DNA from: an uncultured Eubacteriales bacterium
Lineage (GTDB): Bacteria > Bacillota > Clostridia > Saccharofermentanales > UBA5734
Direction: 5' to 3'
DNA: 41,169 nt
Assembly: GCA_903835065.1 (NCBI GenBank)
Contig: CAILLO010000029.1
Coordinates: 1-41,169 of the forward strand
The notes beneath the pieces were generated by a model. The model was given only the letters and a program-made list of their open reading frames with translations. It was not told where the DNA came from and did not search any database. Both the position numbers and the translations under genes were made by a program. This document shows, piece after piece, positions 30,497 through 37,151 of this stretch. Position 1 is the first letter of the stretch. Every line of letters begins with the position of its first letter.

Positions 30497-30844
30497 CTAG
30501 ATGCCGCTGTCCTGCGGGAGGAAGCCCGACAGGATCACCTTCAGCTGCTCGGTCTCGAGTCCGTTGAGCGCGACGCCGCGGCTCATCTTGTCGTGGTCCG
30601 GCGCCCAGTCGCGGATGTCGAGGCGAGCGGGCTTGGCGTTCCAGCTGACGATGTTGACCTCGCGGGTCCAGCCGCGCGGGCTGATGCTCAGCACGCCGAC
30701 GTGGCGGACGATCTCGAACGAGAAGTCGTCGGCGGAGGAGCGCGGCGGCTCCGGGGCATCGCGGCGGTCGCCCGCCGTGCGGGGCGCGGCTTCCGCCGAC
30801 TGGGTCGGGGCGTGGCTCTGGGGCGCGTGCATGTTTCGGTTCAT
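30497..30844 (-). CDS. PC4/YdbC-type ssDNA-binding protein
   Basis: A 115-residue protein. The first 40 residues are Pro/Ala/Ser-rich. The rest matches the YdbC branch of the PC4 family: FEIVRHVGVLSISPRGWTREVNIVSWN, ARLDIRDWAPDHDKMSRGVALN, then a helix ETEQLKVILSG. YdbC of Lactococcus binds single-stranded DNA and RNA as a dimer, like the eukaryotic coactivator PC4. AAGGAGG lies eight bases before the ATG. It follows cpaB by 16 bases and so is transcribed with the pilus genes, an unexpected companion. Confidence 0.88.
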   Translation of the reverse strand: MNRNMHAPQSHAPTQSAEAAPRTAGDRRDAPEPPRSSADDFSFEIVRHVGVLSISPRGWTREVNIVSWNAKPARLDIRDWAPDHDKMSRGVALNGLETEQLKVILSGFLPQDSGI

Positions 30845-30860
30845 GGTCTCGTCCTCCTTC

Positions 30861-31502
30861 TCATTGCATCGTCTCATTGACGATGATCACCTTGATCCGG
30901 CCGTCGATCTCCGTCTCGGCCAACCGTTCCGCCTGCGCCGCGTCGACGTCGAGACAGAGGATTGCGGGCGCCGCCTCTCCGCTCTGGGTCCCCGTCGCAA
31001 TCAAGTGGCCCTTCGCATCCATCACGCCGGCGACGCGGACATCCGCCAGCACGTCCCGGCTCAGTCCACCCTCCGGATCCGTCGCGAGCAACTGGACATC
31101 GACGAGGCTTCCCTCCGACAACCACCAGCCGCATGCGTCCTCGGCCCGGAGCGCCAGCGCGTAGATGCGCCGACCGGGTCCGGAGCCGGGGTGCGCGGTC
31201 CCCGTCGTCTCCTCCGTCAATCTCCCCGCCTGGATCGTCTCCCCCGCGAACAGGTCGACGGCCGCATGCAGACCCACCGCCTCCTCCACCGTCCGCACGG
31301 CCCCCTCCGGCACCCGGTCGGCCGGCAGCCGCGCCAGGACCAGCATCGAGGCGTCGAGAACGGTGCCCGCCGGGGCGTCTACCGCCGCGACGGGGACCTG
31401 GATGCCCTCGGGCGCCGCGGAGGGTCGCAGGGCCATATAGGATAGCGACAGAAGGGTCGCCGCGGCGAGCACCGCGATTAGGACCTGTCTTCTTCGGGTC
31501 AT
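30861..31502 (-). CDS. cpaB: CpaB/RcpC-like pilus assembly protein (SAF domain)
   Basis: A 213-residue protein with one N-terminal membrane segment (VLIAVLAAATLLSLSYMAL) and a SAF domain: VPVAAVDAPAGTVLDASMLVLARLPADRVPEGAV..., then FAGETIQAGRL. CpaB/RcpC proteins sit in the periplasmic or outer-face part of the Flp pilus apparatus. AGGAG precedes the ATG. It comes after the TadE-like genes and before ydbC. The N-terminal anchor suits a Gram-positive-type cell. Confidence 0.87.
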   Translation of the reverse strand: MTRRRQVLIAVLAAATLLSLSYMALRPSAAPEGIQVPVAAVDAPAGTVLDASMLVLARLPADRVPEGAVRTVEEAVGLHAAVDLFAGETIQAGRLTEETTGTAHPGSGPGRRIYALALRAEDACGWWLSEGSLVDVQLLATDPEGGLSRDVLADVRVAGVMDAKGHLIATGTQSGEAAPAILCLDVDAAQAERLAETEIDGRIKVIIVNETMQ

Positions 31503-31523: not shown

Positions 31524-31994
31524 TCAGGGTTCCGCGGGCAGGTCGACCCGGCAGGCGACCTCGGCCACGTCGGGGACCGCATCGCCGAAGAGCCCCTCCC
31601 GCAGCCGCCCGGGGCGGTAGCGCATCCTGCAGTCGACCGTGGAGTCGGACACGAGTTCGGCCTCCACCGACACGACGAGGCCGCCGAGCGGTCCGGACGC
31701 GGCGTTGGCCTCGATCTCGGACTCCAGGACCGCTCGGAAAGCGGCCATGTCCTCCTCGCCGATGCCCGACCCCAGGCGCGCCAGCGACAGGCACGGGAAC
31801 GCACAGGTCGCCGAAGCCTCCAGGATGGCGTGGGCCTCCCCGTCGAGCACGACGGCGTAGAGCGCCTTGGCCGCCAGCGCGAAGAGCGGCGCGGCGATGC
31901 CGACGGCCAACACGGCGATGACCAGCACCGCGCCTAGCGAACCTCGCCGGCGTACGTGGAGATCCTGCGGCAGAGCGTTTCCTTCCGGAACCAC
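31524..31994 (-). CDS. TadE-like minor pilin (second copy)
   Basis: A protein of up to 156 residues with a pseudopilin-like layout: a short basic stretch VRRRGSLG, a hydrophobic helix (AVLVIAVLAVGIAAPLFALAAKALYAVVL), then a soluble domain with four cysteines. It follows another TadE-like gene and precedes cpaB, the usual place for TadE/TadF. The start is uncertain. The GTG at 31994, ten bases after AGGAGG, overlaps the upstream gene by 61 bases but keeps the basic residues before the helix. The call is based on topology and context, not on a family motif. Confidence 0.65.
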   Translation of the reverse strand: MVPEGNALPQDLHVRRRGSLGAVLVIAVLAVGIAAPLFALAAKALYAVVLDGEAHAILEASATCAFPCLSLARLGSGIGEEDMAAFRAVLESEIEANAASGPLGGLVVSVEAELVSDSTVDCRMRYRPGRLREGLFGDAVPDVAEVACRVDLPAEP

Positions 31995-32329
31995 AGCGAC
32001 GCCACCTCCTCTCCGCCGACGAAGCCGGCGCCGATCGTCGGGAGCCGCGCCTTCGCCGTCACCTCGAGGACGAGGGGCGCCCCGAAGGGCGCCCCCTCGG
32101 TCGCTTCCACGGCGACGTCCTCGAAACCCGCCGCCTCGAGCGAGGCCGCGAGCGCCGACCGGTCCGCCTCCGGCAAGCCTCCGAGCGCATCCATGCGGAA
32201 CAGGGCGGTCCGGCAGAGCACGTCGAACTCGGCCCGGTGCAGGAAGGGGACCAGCAGGTCCACCATTCCCACCATCAGGGCGACCAGCAGCACCGCGGAG
32301 AACACCGCGACCAGCGTCCTGTCCAGCAT
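31934..32329 (-). CDS. TadE-like minor pilin (first copy)
   Basis: A 131-residue protein with a hydrophobic N-terminal helix (LVAVFSAVLLVALMVGMVDLLVPFL) directly after the start, followed by a soluble region with Cys residues and a closing RRISTYAGEVR. The layout and position between the Flp pilin and cpaB fit TadE/TadF minor pilins. GGAGG lies eight bases before the ATG. No specific motif was recognised. Confidence 0.65.
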   Translation of the reverse strand: MLDRTLVAVFSAVLLVALMVGMVDLLVPFLHRAEFDVLCRTALFRMDALGGLPEADRSALAASLEAAGFEDVAVEATEGAPFGAPLVLEVTAKARLPTIGAGFVGGEEVASLWFRKETLCRRISTYAGEVR

Positions 32330-32343
32330 GGCGGCGACCTCCC

Positions 32344-32598
32344 CTACACCAGGAAGAGGGTGTCGGCCATGTCGCCCCACCAGGAGCCCAGGCGGTCGAG
32401 CAGGTCGCCCGCGAAGGCCTGCAGGCCCGGGATCACGACCAGCGCGGCGATGATGACGCCGGCCGCGATGCCGATGACCTCGTTGATGCCGAAGCCCTTG
32501 CGGGTCTTCAGGCTGTGGACGGTGCTGGACAGTCTGCGGGCGGAGTGGTCGAGGGCGATGACGGTGAAGAGGACCGGGTGCTTGGTTTTCGTGTTCAT
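32344..32598 (-). CDS. Flp1-type type IVb pilin
   Basis: An 84-residue protein. A 33-residue polar leader ends KTRKGFG, followed by INEVIGIAAGVIIAALVVIPGLQAFAG, with the glutamate at position five after the Gly as in type IV pilins (cleavage after KGFG or nearby). Clostridial Flp1 pilins have a comparable layout. AAGGAGG lies seven bases before the ATG and is the strongest in the operon. A hairpin in the 48-base gap after tadC may help raise its expression. It is the likely main pilus subunit. Confidence 0.8.
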   Translation of the reverse strand: MNTKTKHPVLFTVIALDHSARRLSSTVHSLKTRKGFGINEVIGIAAGVIIAALVVIPGLQAFAGDLLDRLGSWWGDMADTLFLV

Positions 32599-32646: not shown

Positions 32647-33492
32647 TCAGGCGAAGACGCTGCCGAGTGCCCGATAGGCGTCGAAGAGGACCGGCAGCAG
32701 GAACAGCAGCACGAGCGGGGACGCGGAGAGCAGGGCGGCCACGACCAGGCGGGTGCGGACCCCCTCCGTCTCCTTCTGCATTCCGTTGAAGTACTTCGAG
32801 AACATGATCTCCTCCATGCGCCACAGCATCCGGCCGCCGCCGCCGGTTTCCACGCACTGGCGGATCGCGACGCACAGCATCTCGCTGTCATGTCCCTTGA
32901 ACGACCGCCGCAGCTCGTCGAGGGACCGCTCGAGATCGAGCGTCAGCTCGTAGGTCGCGACGAAGCGCACGAAGACGTCCTTCACCACCGGGTCGTCCAT
33001 GACCTCGTGCAGGCCGCGGATGGCGTCGGTCGCCCGGATGCCCGATCCGACCTGGGCGTCGAGGAACCGGTAGGCCTTGTAGGCGCTGCGCGTCAGCGCC
33101 CTCGAGCGCGAGGCGGTGCGGCCGGAGACCACGACCCGGGTCATCCCGACGACCGCCAGCGCGATGCCGAGGCCTGCGCCAGGCCCCCGCCCGGCGGCGA
33201 GGCAGGCGGCGCACAGCAATGCGGGGACAACGGACAGGCATGCGAGATAGCCTTCCCAGGCCCAGGGCGCCCGGTACCCCGCTTCCGCGACGACCGGCTC
33301 GCACTTCGCGCGCAGGGCGTCCAGCCAGGCCGGGAGCTTGCCGCTCCGACGCGTCCGGCCAAGAGGGGGCTCCGAGGGCATCGCCCGCCGCATGACCGGC
33401 TTTGCGCGGCAGACCACGGTCGGCGCCGCATAATAGGCGGCGGACCCCCCCAGGGCGGCCGCGAAGAGCGCGAATCCGAAGGCGGCGTTCAT
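32647..33492 (-). CDS. tadC: TadC-like type II secretion F-domain protein
   Basis: A 281-residue inner-membrane platform protein. It has hydrophobic segments near 1-25, 83-120 and the C-terminus (LVVAALLSASPLVLLFLLPVLF), with a T2SSF cytoplasmic helical domain between (YRFLDAQVGSGIRATDAIRGLHEVMDDPVVKDVF..., then SEMLCVAIRQCVETGGGGRMLWRMEEIM). With TadB it forms the platform for pilus assembly. Its ATG overlaps the tadB stop by four bases. Confidence 0.85.
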   Translation of the reverse strand: MNAAFGFALFAAALGGSAAYYAAPTVVCRAKPVMRRAMPSEPPLGRTRRSGKLPAWLDALRAKCEPVVAEAGYRAPWAWEGYLACLSVVPALLCAACLAAGRGPGAGLGIALAVVGMTRVVVSGRTASRSRALTRSAYKAYRFLDAQVGSGIRATDAIRGLHEVMDDPVVKDVFVRFVATYELTLDLERSLDELRRSFKGHDSEMLCVAIRQCVETGGGGRMLWRMEEIMFSKYFNGMQKETEGVRTRLVVAALLSASPLVLLFLLPVLFDAYRALGSVFA

Positions 33493-34340
33493 CCGCGCAC
33501 CCCCGAGGCGGACAGCAGCAGATAGCCGCCGGCGAGGTAGAGTCCCGCGGCGAGGTAGGCCGCGAGGTTCCCGAGGCTCGTCCCGAAGAAGAGGTCGCGG
33601 GCCGAACCGGGACCGGTCAGGATCGCGAGCGCGACGGGCGGGACGGCGGCGACCACGGCGAGGACGATGGCCCGGTCCCGGGACGTCGAGATCCTGCGCC
33701 GGTTGTATTCCTCCTCGATGCGTCCGAGCTGGGTCTCGGTGCCTTCTAGGAACTTCGACAGGTCGCCGCGGTAGCGCAGGTTGAAGCGCACCGAAGTCAC
33801 GAATTCGCGGAACTGCGCCTGGTCGGCCACGTCGCCGAACATCTCGAGGGAGCGCTCGACGCCCATTCCACCGCGGATGCGCGTCACGAGGTCGCGCACA
33901 TGCCCGCGCATGGGTTCGCCGAGCCCGGATGCCGCGCTCTTCTCGAAGGCGTACAGCAGGTCCTCGCGCACGGCGCACCAGCGGTTGAGCAGGCCGACCA
34001 GCTCGAGCAGGCGGCGCCGGGTGCGTTCCCCCTGGATGCCCGCCGCGGTGTCCAGCGCGAGGTACTCTCCGACGCCCACCGCGACCGCGACCACCGCCGA
34101 CCCGAACGCGCCGGCTCCGTATCCGGCCGCGACCGCCCCGCACGCCACGGCGACGCCGAGGCCCGCGCGGAGCAGCGAGCGGCCGTCGAGCCTGGGAAGC
34201 GCCCGCAGCAGGCCGGACCTATGCCCGAACCCCTCGATCCGGCGTTCCAGCTTCGTCGGGGACTTCCCCCGGCGCGGTGCGCGGGCGCTCCCGCCCCGCA
34301 TCCTGCCAGACCCTCCGGAATCGGAACCGCTCCCCACCAT
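33489..34340 (-). CDS. tadB: TadB-like type II secretion F-domain protein
   Basis: A 283-residue platform protein. Two hydrophobic stretches near 60-100 are followed by a helical T2SSF region (LLELVGLLNRWCAVREDLLYAFEKSAASGL..., VRDLVTRIRGGMGVERSLEMF) and two C-terminal membrane segments. Two starts are possible: ATG 34340 (GGAGG nine bases before) and ATG 34301 (GGAGG ten bases before). Both lie inside the cpaF 3' end, giving an overlap of 122 or 83 bases. This is longer than any other overlap in the operon. Confidence 0.82.
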   Translation of the reverse strand: MVGSGSDSGGSGRMRGGSARAPRRGKSPTKLERRIEGFGHRSGLLRALPRLDGRSLLRAGLGVAVACGAVAAGYGAGAFGSAVVAVAVGVGEYLALDTAAGIQGERTRRRLLELVGLLNRWCAVREDLLYAFEKSAASGLGEPMRGHVRDLVTRIRGGMGVERSLEMFGDVADQAQFREFVTSVRFNLRYRGDLSKFLEGTETQLGRIEEEYNRRRISTSRDRAIVLAVVAAVPPVALAILTGPGSARDLFFGTSLGNLAAYLAAGLYLAGGYLLLSASGVRG

Positions 34341-35490
34341 CGTCGAACCCCTCCACCGCCAGCCATTCCACCAACCGGTACCGTTCCAGGAACAGGACGT
34401 CGTCCACGCTGCCCCCGGCTATCCTCTTCAAGGTCCGTTCGCCGTCCCCCGAAGCACCGGGCCGCGCGAGCGACACCAGCCGGTCCAGGGCGTCCGACGC
34501 CCGCTCCGCGTGCACGGTCGCAAGGCACCGATGGCCCGAGAACGCCGCCCGGAGGAACTCGTACGCCTCGTCCCCCACGATCTCCCCGATGCAGTAGGTG
34601 TCGAGGGACATCGTCAGGCCATCCGACACGAGGTCCCGCAGCGTCACGGGACGGCCGCCCTCGTTCTTCTTCTTGATGCGCTGCTGGATGCAGAAGGGCT
34701 TGTCGGGAAAGATCTCCGAGTCGCTCTCGGCGACGAGCACGCGCTCCATTTCGGGCATCGCCTTCACGAACGCCCGCAGCAGAGTCGTCTTGCCTGCGGC
34801 GCCGCGCCCGCAGAACAGCACCGTCCGGCCACTCCCCGCAAGGTCTCGGAGCCTTCCGGACAGTCCTTCCGCGAGCATTCCGGCCACGGACAGCTCCTCC
34901 AGCGAAAACGCCTCGCGTCGATGCTTGCGGACGCTGATCGACGGGCCGTCCACGTTGCGGGGCGGGATCGCCACATTGATGCGCAGCCGGCGCGCCTCGT
35001 CGGTCACGCGGCAGTGGCTGTCGTTCTCGTTGAGGATTCCGCCATTGCGGATCACGACGAGGCGGCAGTAAGCGTCGAAGGTTTTCTCGTCCGGGAAGCG
35101 CACGTCGACGCGCGAGCGCTCGCCGTTCCGCTTCACGGAGAACTCGTCGAAGCGCGTGCCGTCGATGTCCGAGACCGCGTCGTCCTCCACGAGCTCCTGG
35201 AGCGGTCCGTAACCGAACATGAAGTCGAGGACGCGCCTCACCAGCTCCTCCCGGTACAGTCCGAACCGCAGTCGCTCCCCTTCGGCCTGCTTGAGAATCA
35301 GGGACTCGAGTGTCCCGCGTTCCATCCGGCCTGCCGCGACCTCAGCCACGAGGTCCGGGCTGTCCGTCAGGATCGACACGGAAATCGCCGAGACGAGCGC
35401 CGTCATGCCGGCGCCGTCGGGACCGGTCTCCTGGGGCGCGAGGCGGCCGAACCGCTCGGCCAGGGCGTGGTGGGACGTCACGACCGGCAT
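34219..35490 (-). CDS. cpaF: CpaF/TadA-family pilus assembly ATPase
   Basis: A 423-residue secretion ATPase that powers pilus assembly. It has the family's GYGPLQELVEDDAVSDI (93-109), DGPSISVRKHRR, Walker A GRGAAGKTT with Lys234, the Asp box ESDSEIF, and the MSLDTYCIGEIVGDEAYEFL and HRCLATVHAERA segments corresponding to Walker B and the His box. The sequence is divergent from proteobacterial CpaF (GEIVGDEA in place of GEVRGxEA) and typical of Bacillota forms. GGGGAGG lies nine bases before the ATG, two bases after the kinase-TadZ stop. Confidence 0.92.
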   Translation of the reverse strand: MPVVTSHHALAERFGRLAPQETGPDGAGMTALVSAISVSILTDSPDLVAEVAAGRMERGTLESLILKQAEGERLRFGLYREELVRRVLDFMFGYGPLQELVEDDAVSDIDGTRFDEFSVKRNGERSRVDVRFPDEKTFDAYCRLVVIRNGGILNENDSHCRVTDEARRLRINVAIPPRNVDGPSISVRKHRREAFSLEELSVAGMLAEGLSGRLRDLAGSGRTVLFCGRGAAGKTTLLRAFVKAMPEMERVLVAESDSEIFPDKPFCIQQRIKKKNEGGRPVTLRDLVSDGLTMSLDTYCIGEIVGDEAYEFLRAAFSGHRCLATVHAERASDALDRLVSLARPGASGDGERTLKRIAGGSVDDVLFLERYRLVEWLAVEGFDDGGERFRFRRVWQDAGRERPRTAPGEVPDEAGTPDRGVRA

Positions 35491-35492
35491 GG

Positions 35493-37151
35493 TCAGCGCC
35501 CTCCCCGCCCGGACGCGGAAGCGGCGCAGAGGCGTGTCAGCAGCGCACGGTATTCGCGGACGGTCTTCTCGTCCAGCGAGGCCGCGTGCGGGCGGCCGGC
35601 GCTCGACAGCGCGCGCCTGCGGGGCGTGTCGGAGACGCAGCCGCAGAAGGCTCCCCCGGACAGCTCCTCCATCGTCCCCCACCCGAGGTCCGCCCCCGCG
35701 TGGTGCTCGAAGGCCACGAACCGCACGCGCGACCGGTCGAGCTGGCGGCGCACGGACAGGAAACCGATGTATCGGTTGAATTCGCGGAAATCCGCCACGC
35801 GGCCGCGCACGGCGACCACGACGGATTCGGACAGCATCAGGGAAAGGCAGGTGAAGGCGTCGTACAGGAAGCGCCCGCACAGCACCACCACCGAGTCGAA
35901 GGCGGCCCCAGAGAGCCGCAGCACCTGCGCCAGGCCTTCGGCCGAGTAGTATTCGTAATCCTCCATGCGGTAATCGCCGGCGAGCGCGCTCACGCCCCGC
36001 ACCGCCGTCGGGCGTGCGATCGCGGCGACCGCGTCGGGCGTCAGCCGCCCTCGCGCGTGCTCCTCCATCGCCTCGTCCAGCCCTCCGCCGCCGAACAGGC
36101 GGGACGCGGCCGTTTCCGGTCGGCGCTCCTCCCGCAGGCCGAGCAACAGGTCGGCCCGGGGATTCAGCAGGTCGGCGTCGACGACGAGGACGCGGCGCCC
36201 CTCCGACGCCAGCACCGCCGCCAGTTCGCAACCGAACTCGGGCGCATCCCAGACGCACAGCGGCGAAGGGGGCACGGGCCGCGGACCGGTCGCGGCGCGC
36301 GGCAGCGACACGGTCTTCGGGCCGACCGCGGCCGAATCGACGGTCTTCGGTCGTCTCGCTTCGTGTTCCGGGTCGGTCGGGACGGGTCCCATCATCGGCA
36401 GCAGCGCCTCGAGGTCCGCCGCAAACTCGTTCGCGGAGCCGTACCGGTCCTCCGGGTCGATCGCGAGGCAACGTGCCGCGATGCGGGACAACGGCGCTCC
36501 GGCGTCCGCGATCAGGTCCCGGGCGGAGAATGGGCGCGCAGGGTCGGGTGCGCGACCGGACAACAGCCGCACGAGCGTCGCCCCGAGCGAATAGACGTCG
36601 CTTTCGATCCGCGCCCCCCGACCGCCCAGCACCTCCGGCGCCGCATAGCCCGGTGTGCCGTGGAGGTCGGCCGTCCCGCGCGCCAGGGACAGCGGAAGCG
36701 CCGCACCGAAATCGATCAGGCAGGGGGCCCCGCGGACCCCGACGACGATGTTCGAGGGCTTGACGTCGAGGTGCAGCAGCGGCTCGGGCTCCTGCCAGTG
36801 CAGGAAGTCCACGGCGCGCGCGATGCCGGCCATCCAGCGGACGGCGTCCGCCTCGCGGACCTTGCCGCCGGCGCTCTCGGCGACCGACTCCAGCGTCTCC
36901 CCCTCCAGGTATTCGATCACGAGCCAGGAGTCCCCGTCCTGTTCGACTTCCTCGAGCACCCGCGGCAGCGCGGGGTGGCGGAGCTCGGCGAGCAGGCCCG
37001 CGACGTCGGGCGAGCGGAAGGAGGCAGCCGGGCGGAGCGTCCAGCGTACGCTCGTGCGCACGTTCTCGGCGAGGCAGGCGTCTCCGGACCTCTCCAGCAC
37101 CCGGTATCGTCCGGCGACCAGTGCGTCCTTCTCCAACGGGTCCATGGCCAT
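35493..37151 (-). CDS. Hanks-type kinase domain fused to a TadZ/CpaE-like domain
   Basis: A 552-residue cytoplasmic protein. Residues about 14-255 form a Ser/Thr kinase fold: HLDVKPSN (127-134, catalytic Asp129), LIDFG (145-149), GTPGYAAPE (165-173) and SDVYSLG (184-190). The N-lobe is abnormal: the glycine loop reads RSGDACLAE, and where VAIK should be the sequence is WTLR (Arg40), so the ATP-anchoring Lys is absent. A linker holds two PKTV repeats (268-271, 278-281). Residues about 297-520 resemble TadZ/CpaE: VLVVDADLLNPRADLLLG is the MinD-like second strand, but the P-loop KGGVGKT position reads WDAPEFG. TadZ proteins often have degraded P-loops. It heads the tad operon, so it probably guides pilus placement or signalling. 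Catalysis is uncertain in both halves. Confidence 0.85.
   Translation of the reverse strand: MAMDPLEKDALVAGRYRVLERSGDACLAENVRTSVRWTLRPAASFRSPDVAGLLAELRHPALPRVLEEVEQDGDSWLVIEYLEGETLESVAESAGGKVREADAVRWMAGIARAVDFLHWQEPEPLLHLDVKPSNIVVGVRGAPCLIDFGAALPLSLARGTADLHGTPGYAAPEVLGGRGARIESDVYSLGATLVRLLSGRAPDPARPFSARDLIADAGAPLSRIAARCLAIDPEDRYGSANEFAADLEALLPMMGPVPTDPEHEARRPKTVDSAAVGPKTVSLPRAATGPRPVPPSPLCVWDAPEFGCELAAVLASEGRRVLVVDADLLNPRADLLLGLREERRPETAASRLFGGGGLDEAMEEHARGRLTPDAVAAIARPTAVRGVSALAGDYRMEDYEYYSAEGLAQVLRLSGAAFDSVVVLCGRFLYDAFTCLSLMLSESVVVAVRGRVADFREFNRYIGFLSVRRQLDRSRVRFVAFEHHAGADLGWGTMEELSGGAFCGCVSDTPRRRALSSAGRPHAASLDEKTVREYRALLTRLCAASASGRGGR

Follow-up and report, generated by a model that had tools for sequence, protein, structure and literature searches.

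The locus

Within the 41,169-nucleotide stretch analysed here (the window), a single gene on the minus strand, open from ATG to TGA and immediately preceded by a ribosome-site-like GAGGAGG, encodes a kinase-TadZ fusion (KZ) that heads a cpaF-tadB-tadC-pilin-cpaB operon (Table 1). Upstream of KZ on the same strand lie clpX, clpP and tig, and on its 3' side follow cpaF, tadB, tadC, a candidate Flp-like pilin, two TadE/F-like genes and cpaB. Because the cpaF ATG is found 2 bases past the KZ TGA, the two genes are probably cotranslated. The original prediction, made from the sequence alone, had placed the fusion at the head of a Tad pilus operon, and Pfam matches to cpaF, tadB and cpaB, together with a weaker match to tadC, bear this out; KZ is co-encoded with cpaF, tadB and tadC in the manner of TadZ/CpaE proteins. 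The candidate Flp-like pilin returned no match in a Pfam search. A PC4-like gene (30497-30877) lies between cpaB and araC in the window and is likewise placed in some relatives (L032, L041, L190).

Table 1. Features of the KZ gene and its operon (window coordinates; residues are those of KZ)
Feature	Position	Strand	Basis or remarks
KZ, kinase-TadZ fusion	35493..37151	-	552 aa + stop; full-length homologues of the same family 32-47% identical
Kinase half, residues 15-252	36396..37109	-	Pfam, structure match, motif alignment
Codon of Arg40, VAIK Lys position (WTLR)	37032..37034	-	Alignment
Catalytic-loop motif HLDVKPSN, residues 127-134	36750..36773	-	H127, D129, K131 and P132 invariant in 19 family members
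DFG motif, residues 147-149	36705..36713	-	D147 invariant
Linker, residues 256-296, two PKTV repeats	36264..36386	-	Disordered in model; not conserved
Degenerate MinD/TadZ half, residues 297-552	35496..36263	-	Structure and profile
VWDAPEFGCELA (residues 300-311), conserved, where the P-loop would lie	36219..36254	-	Alignment, profile
cpaF/TadA motor ATPase	34219..35490	-	Pfam T2SSE, E 4e-21; intact P-loop GRGAAGKTT
tadB platform protein	33489..34340	-	Pfam T2SSF, E 1.2e-6
tadC platform protein	32647..33492	-	Pfam T2SSF, E 0.003, under curated cut-off; operon position conserved
Flp-pilin-like small protein candidate (KGFGINEVIGIAAGVIIAALVV)	32344..32598	-	Appearance of sequence and position
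TadE/F-like minor pilin candidate	31934..32380	-	Kept in operon across families; no Pfam family
Second TadE/F-like minor pilin candidate	31524..31994	-	Weak conservation in operon
cpaB/RcpC	30861..31502	-	Pfam SAF, E 4.5e-11; RcpC, E 4.9e-7

The two halves of KZ

Residues 5-260 correspond to a Hanks-type kinase fold, and the kinase half matches Pfam Pkinase with an E value of 5e-28. In an AlphaFold model run on the family alignment (mean pLDDT of 83 for the whole of KZ), this region adopts the bilobal protein-kinase fold, and residues 6-252 superpose on Mycobacterium tuberculosis PknB with a Z score of 27.9 and an rmsd of 2.1 over 232 residues at 30% identity. The C-lobe retains the motifs listed in the original prediction, HLDVKPSN, DFG and APE (the last at residues 171-173), and with them the catalytic Asp129, Lys131 and Asn134 and the DFG Asp147. 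Equally as predicted, the parts that hold ATP are gone: the Gly-rich loop is absent, Arg40 occupies the position of the VAIK Lys, and Val50 stands at the position of the alpha-C Glu as judged by alignment to fusions with intact kinases. A kinase fold that lacks at least one canonical motif is one mark of a pseudokinase, and the window protein bears it. A Lys elsewhere in the N-lobe might have taken over the VAIK role; none occurs in the sequence between K8 and K96, and since Lys8 is the sole Lys ahead of residue 95, the N-lobe holds no compensating residue.

The linker is the fastest-changing part of KZ and is disordered in the model at residues 261-291. Its two PKTV repeats had been proposed as a phospho-switch, a proposal that we reject because PKTV was found in none of the relatives and the linker evolves fastest. 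The second half, in turn, matches Pfam MinD/ParA families weakly and below threshold (AAA_31, E 0.014). Modelled alone (pLDDT 88.8), it nevertheless takes up a MinD/ParA-type fold, with Z scores of 24.1 over 224 residues to MinD (1g3q) and 19.5 over 216 residues to Eubacterium rectale TadZ (3fkq), matches that identify it as MinD/TadZ-like despite the Pfam result. The claim that one frame joins a kinase fold to a TadZ/CpaE-like domain is upheld by both fold matches.

TadZ/CpaE proteins possess a deviant Walker A P-loop and bind ATP for dimerisation. In KZ this P-loop is deleted: a profile alignment to a canonical receiver-TadZ (L219, TVFGTKGGIGKTT) leaves a 6-residue gap opposite GGIGKT, in agreement with the loss noted originally, and that alignment also shows a substitution of the Walker B Asp, with the DxD past the next strand retained. 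Conserved VWD..EFGCELA and YDAFTC motifs mark this branch. At the N-terminus, a kinase fold is found where TadZ/CpaE proteins carry an (atypical) receiver. The further suggestion that the TadZ half senses nucleotide finds no support, given the deletion of the P-loop.

Distribution among the Clostridia

The original prediction had treated the fusion as something not previously characterised; the domain order stands, yet KZ is no one-off but a conserved family. Although a first contig scan with a single sequence as query gave no match, 19 other genomes from the window's family contain the fusion, and 2 more contain just the kinase half. Since about 20 genomes hold homologues with full-length open frames, the fusion is not an artefact of assembly or frame. 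Where contigs were long enough for gene order to be read, a block of tig-clpP-clpX-KZ-cpaF-tadB-tadC-TadE-like-cpaB-araC is conserved in about 20 family genomes, and, the G005 type described below aside, the fusion and the Tad operon occur together in all other family genomes with sufficient contig. The apparent absence of KZ from G001, a genome of the same genus, is not real, since its clpX locus is itself missing from the assembly. Public records of the KZ group are metagenome-assembled genomes labelled Clostridiaceae, Eubacteriales or Clostridia.

When the MinD half was used to query 391 genomes of the class, clear though more distant homologues emerged in further families. The same domain order beside cpaF-tadB, a search for which had been suggested as a check along with the original prediction, was found in many other Clostridia. 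Three kinds of N-terminal half can be told apart. Some fusions carry an intact kinase with every ATP-binding motif present (L137, L140, L141, L143, L144, L152, L156), and several of these, including L137, L140 and L141, lie directly before cpaF. Others (L135, L136, L138, L139, L142) have in the same pre-cpaF slot a receiver-like domain instead of a kinase, an assignment made by length, position and sequence appearance; Pfam Response_reg matched only the canonical L219, below cut-off. A third group carries reduced kinases (L147-L153, L161), of which L161 has lost the catalytic loop as well (HGSIHHDN).

Separate histories of the two degenerations

The original prediction of a doubly degenerate protein holds as far as both losses are concerned, but the losses have separate histories. 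The P-loop loss of the MinD half is common to kinase-type and receiver-type homologues, the P-loop-less motif being shared by the intact-kinase fusions L137, L140 and L141 and by all five receiver-like fusions; degeneration of the MinD half is therefore not tied to the kinase. Decay of the kinase is secondary and later, since several other families retain an intact kinase half. Kinase and TadZ may have been joined once or several times, a tree that unites all fused kinases passing the AU test (p 0.26), and a single receiver/kinase switch on the TadZ-half tree is not rejected either (p 0.19). Within the window's family, the Gly loop and alpha-C Glu are missing in all members and the VAIK Lys is kept in most, having been lost about four times: in the window (Arg), in L033/L051 (Arg), in L045/L047 (Arg) and in L048 (Met). 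The four changes appear on the kinase tree and on the two-half tree alike. In the deepest-branching family member (L041, 7955-9481), the activation segment reads TTISYAPME vs TPGYAAPE.

Selection and a lone kinase

Pairwise Nei-Gojobori estimates, which are approximate and come from few pairs, give dN/dS values of 0.12-0.19 for the kinase half in close pairs with unsaturated dS (0.17 for the Arg-bearing pair L033/L051) and of 0.05-0.18 for the MinD half in the same pairs; the linkers change faster. The comparison of the window with L032 is unusable (46% identity, GC-rich), and its linker value above 2 is noise. The estimates for both halves point to purifying selection and hence to maintenance of KZ proteins. 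It is also very improbable that KZ is itself degenerating along with a pilus locus under loss: high divergence, repeated loss of kinase motifs and loss of the pilus operon in one genus would fit such a course, against which stand full-length open frames in nearly all genomes, the selection on both halves, the intact P-loop of cpaF and the retention of the operon.

The genus in question is that of G005, in which a 264-aa kinase (L045) follows clpX and stops soon past the C-lobe, with araC about 30 bases on. The TadZ half and the entire Tad operon are gone, and no close cpaF remains in the G005 genome. In G012, a second genome of the genus, a contig ends with a kinase shortened in the same way. 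With Tad operon and TadZ half lost, the function of the L045 kinase in G005 cannot be pilus docking, and these two genomes hint that the kinase half could be of some use where no pilus is present. This persistence counts against a role purely as a pilus scaffold and raises the alternative that the kinase half is a pilus-independent signalling domain merely brought to the pilus by fusion, for which the purifying selection on the G005/G012 pair (dN/dS 0.14, at a dS of 1.7 that is near saturation) could also be cited. We consider this reading improbable, as it draws on just two related genomes, whereas fusion and Tad operon co-occur in every other genome with sufficient contig.

A proposed role at the pilus motor

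On balance, we think it probable that KZ serves a Tad (type IVc) pilus as a docking factor of the TadZ/CpaE type, with a Ser/Thr kinase, by now degenerated into a pseudokinase, having taken the place of the usual N-terminal receiver. Both halves lack the parts that hold ATP, so the window protein is probably a structural adaptor of the pilus motor, in keeping with the original suggestion of a scaffold rather than a kinase. The MinD half would dock on the CpaF/TadB/TadC base, and would do so independently of ATP, since without a P-loop nucleotide cannot be held in the usual way. The pseudokinase half would stand in for the receiver, offering a surface for oligomerisation, adaptor function, contact or regulation. 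Where relatives have kept an intact kinase, this arrangement would hold an active enzyme at the motor, which it could phosphorylate; in the window's family motor phosphorylation by KZ is unlikely. In Caulobacter, CpaE dimers have been modelled as surrounding CpaF, neighbouring dimers touching through their receiver domains (PMC13170226), and on that basis we propose that the pseudokinase may serve as such an inter-dimer contact.

Several features fit a pure scaffold poorly. Asp129, Lys131, Asn134 and Asp147 are kept, needlessly for a scaffold, most relatives of the same family keep the VAIK Lys, and some pseudokinases retain phosphotransfer. The kinase half might accordingly be a weak or atypical enzyme, with Arg40 or another contact in place of the VAIK Lys, that phosphorylates the pilus motor or another substrate. 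The same retained residues would suit it, as would the intact-kinase fusions of other families and the FHA-domain proteins (phospho-Thr readers) that the window's genome encodes in a second Tad-like cluster. We nonetheless judge it unlikely in view of the family-wide loss of Gly loop and alpha-C Glu, the recurrent loss of the VAIK Lys, the lack of any other Lys in the window's N-lobe and the loss of even the catalytic loop in the separate lineage of L161.

Returning to the docking-factor reading, a broader generalisation is offered more tentatively, as a real possibility that we would stop short of calling probable: that one class of Tad pili in the Clostridia has given up the TadZ receiver in favour of a motor-tethered Ser/Thr kinase, which became a pseudokinase scaffold in at least two lineages. 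To our knowledge, the role of the TadZ/CpaE receiver domain is not settled. One operon slot here offers a natural series of receiver, intact kinase, pseudokinase and, after pilus loss, kinase alone, through which that role can be addressed by comparison and domain swapping. The series also suggests a possible route for Ser/Thr phosphorylation to act directly on the pilus motor of Clostridia, and presents a case of repeated kinase-to-pseudokinase conversion within one machine.

Relation to known systems

Like TadZ/CpaE (E. rectale TadZ 3fkq; Caulobacter CpaE), KZ has a half with the MinD/ParA fold and sits in the slot before cpaF-tadB-tadC, and closely related receiver-type proteins occupy that slot in other genomes; it differs in that a kinase fold has replaced the receiver, the P-loop is deleted and the Walker B Asp is replaced. 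With PknB-type Hanks Ser/Thr kinases it shares the fold over residues 6-252, the catalytic loop, DFG and APE, but it lacks the Gly loop, the VAIK Lys (Arg) and the alpha-C Glu, has HLD for HRD, and carries a MinD-like half in place of a PASTA domain. Judged strictly, KZ is neither a TadZ, having no P-loop and no receiver, nor an active Hanks kinase; it probably works like TadZ and descends from both TadZ and Hanks kinases.

Two further systems invite comparison. EssB/YukC contributes a pseudokinase domain to the structure of the type VII secretion machine (PMC11217815); the analogy is one of function alone, and EssB, which belongs to a different machine, is a membrane protein and has no MinD half. 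If the broader generalisation above is true, the pilus case would be an instance, distinct from EssB, of a pseudokinase being taken into a secretion or pilus machine. TsfV of T7SSf is an AAA+ protein with a TadZ-like receiver (PMC11217815), and like KZ shows TadZ parts recombined with other domains in machines of Bacillota, although TsfV keeps the receiver and changes the ATPase whereas KZ has the receiver replaced. We found no description of a kinase-TadZ fusion in open-licence PMC papers, most subscription papers lying outside that search. The components of KZ are of known kinds.

Additional clusters and fusions

A second Tad-like cluster, containing a distant cpaF, occurs in some family genomes: L217 in the window's own genome (G000:C66, 8581-12982), L218 (G005:C112) and L219 (G003:C329). 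The L217 and L218 clusters also encode an FHA-domain protein (E ~1e-15), and the L219 cluster encodes the canonical receiver-TadZ with its P-loop intact. In other families, a kinase-TadZ pilus operon lies near the flagellar cap and chaperone genes fliD and fliS, as identified by Pfam in L190 (2-1189), and the neighbourhood is similar by eye in L189, L191 and L196. Three clusters (L193, 692-4823; L194, 4456-10509; L196, 4736-10341) combine a kinase-TadZ fusion with a separate candidate MinD-like ATPase next to a divergent cpaF candidate; of these assignments, Pfam upheld just the T2SSE and SAF matches, both in L196. Finally, L059 (1679-3172) and L111 (7941-9320, from Lachnoclostridium phytofermentans) encode fused kinases whose second half is of another, P-loop-like kind (GSKAGIGTTHIAL in L059), both away from any recognised cpaF.
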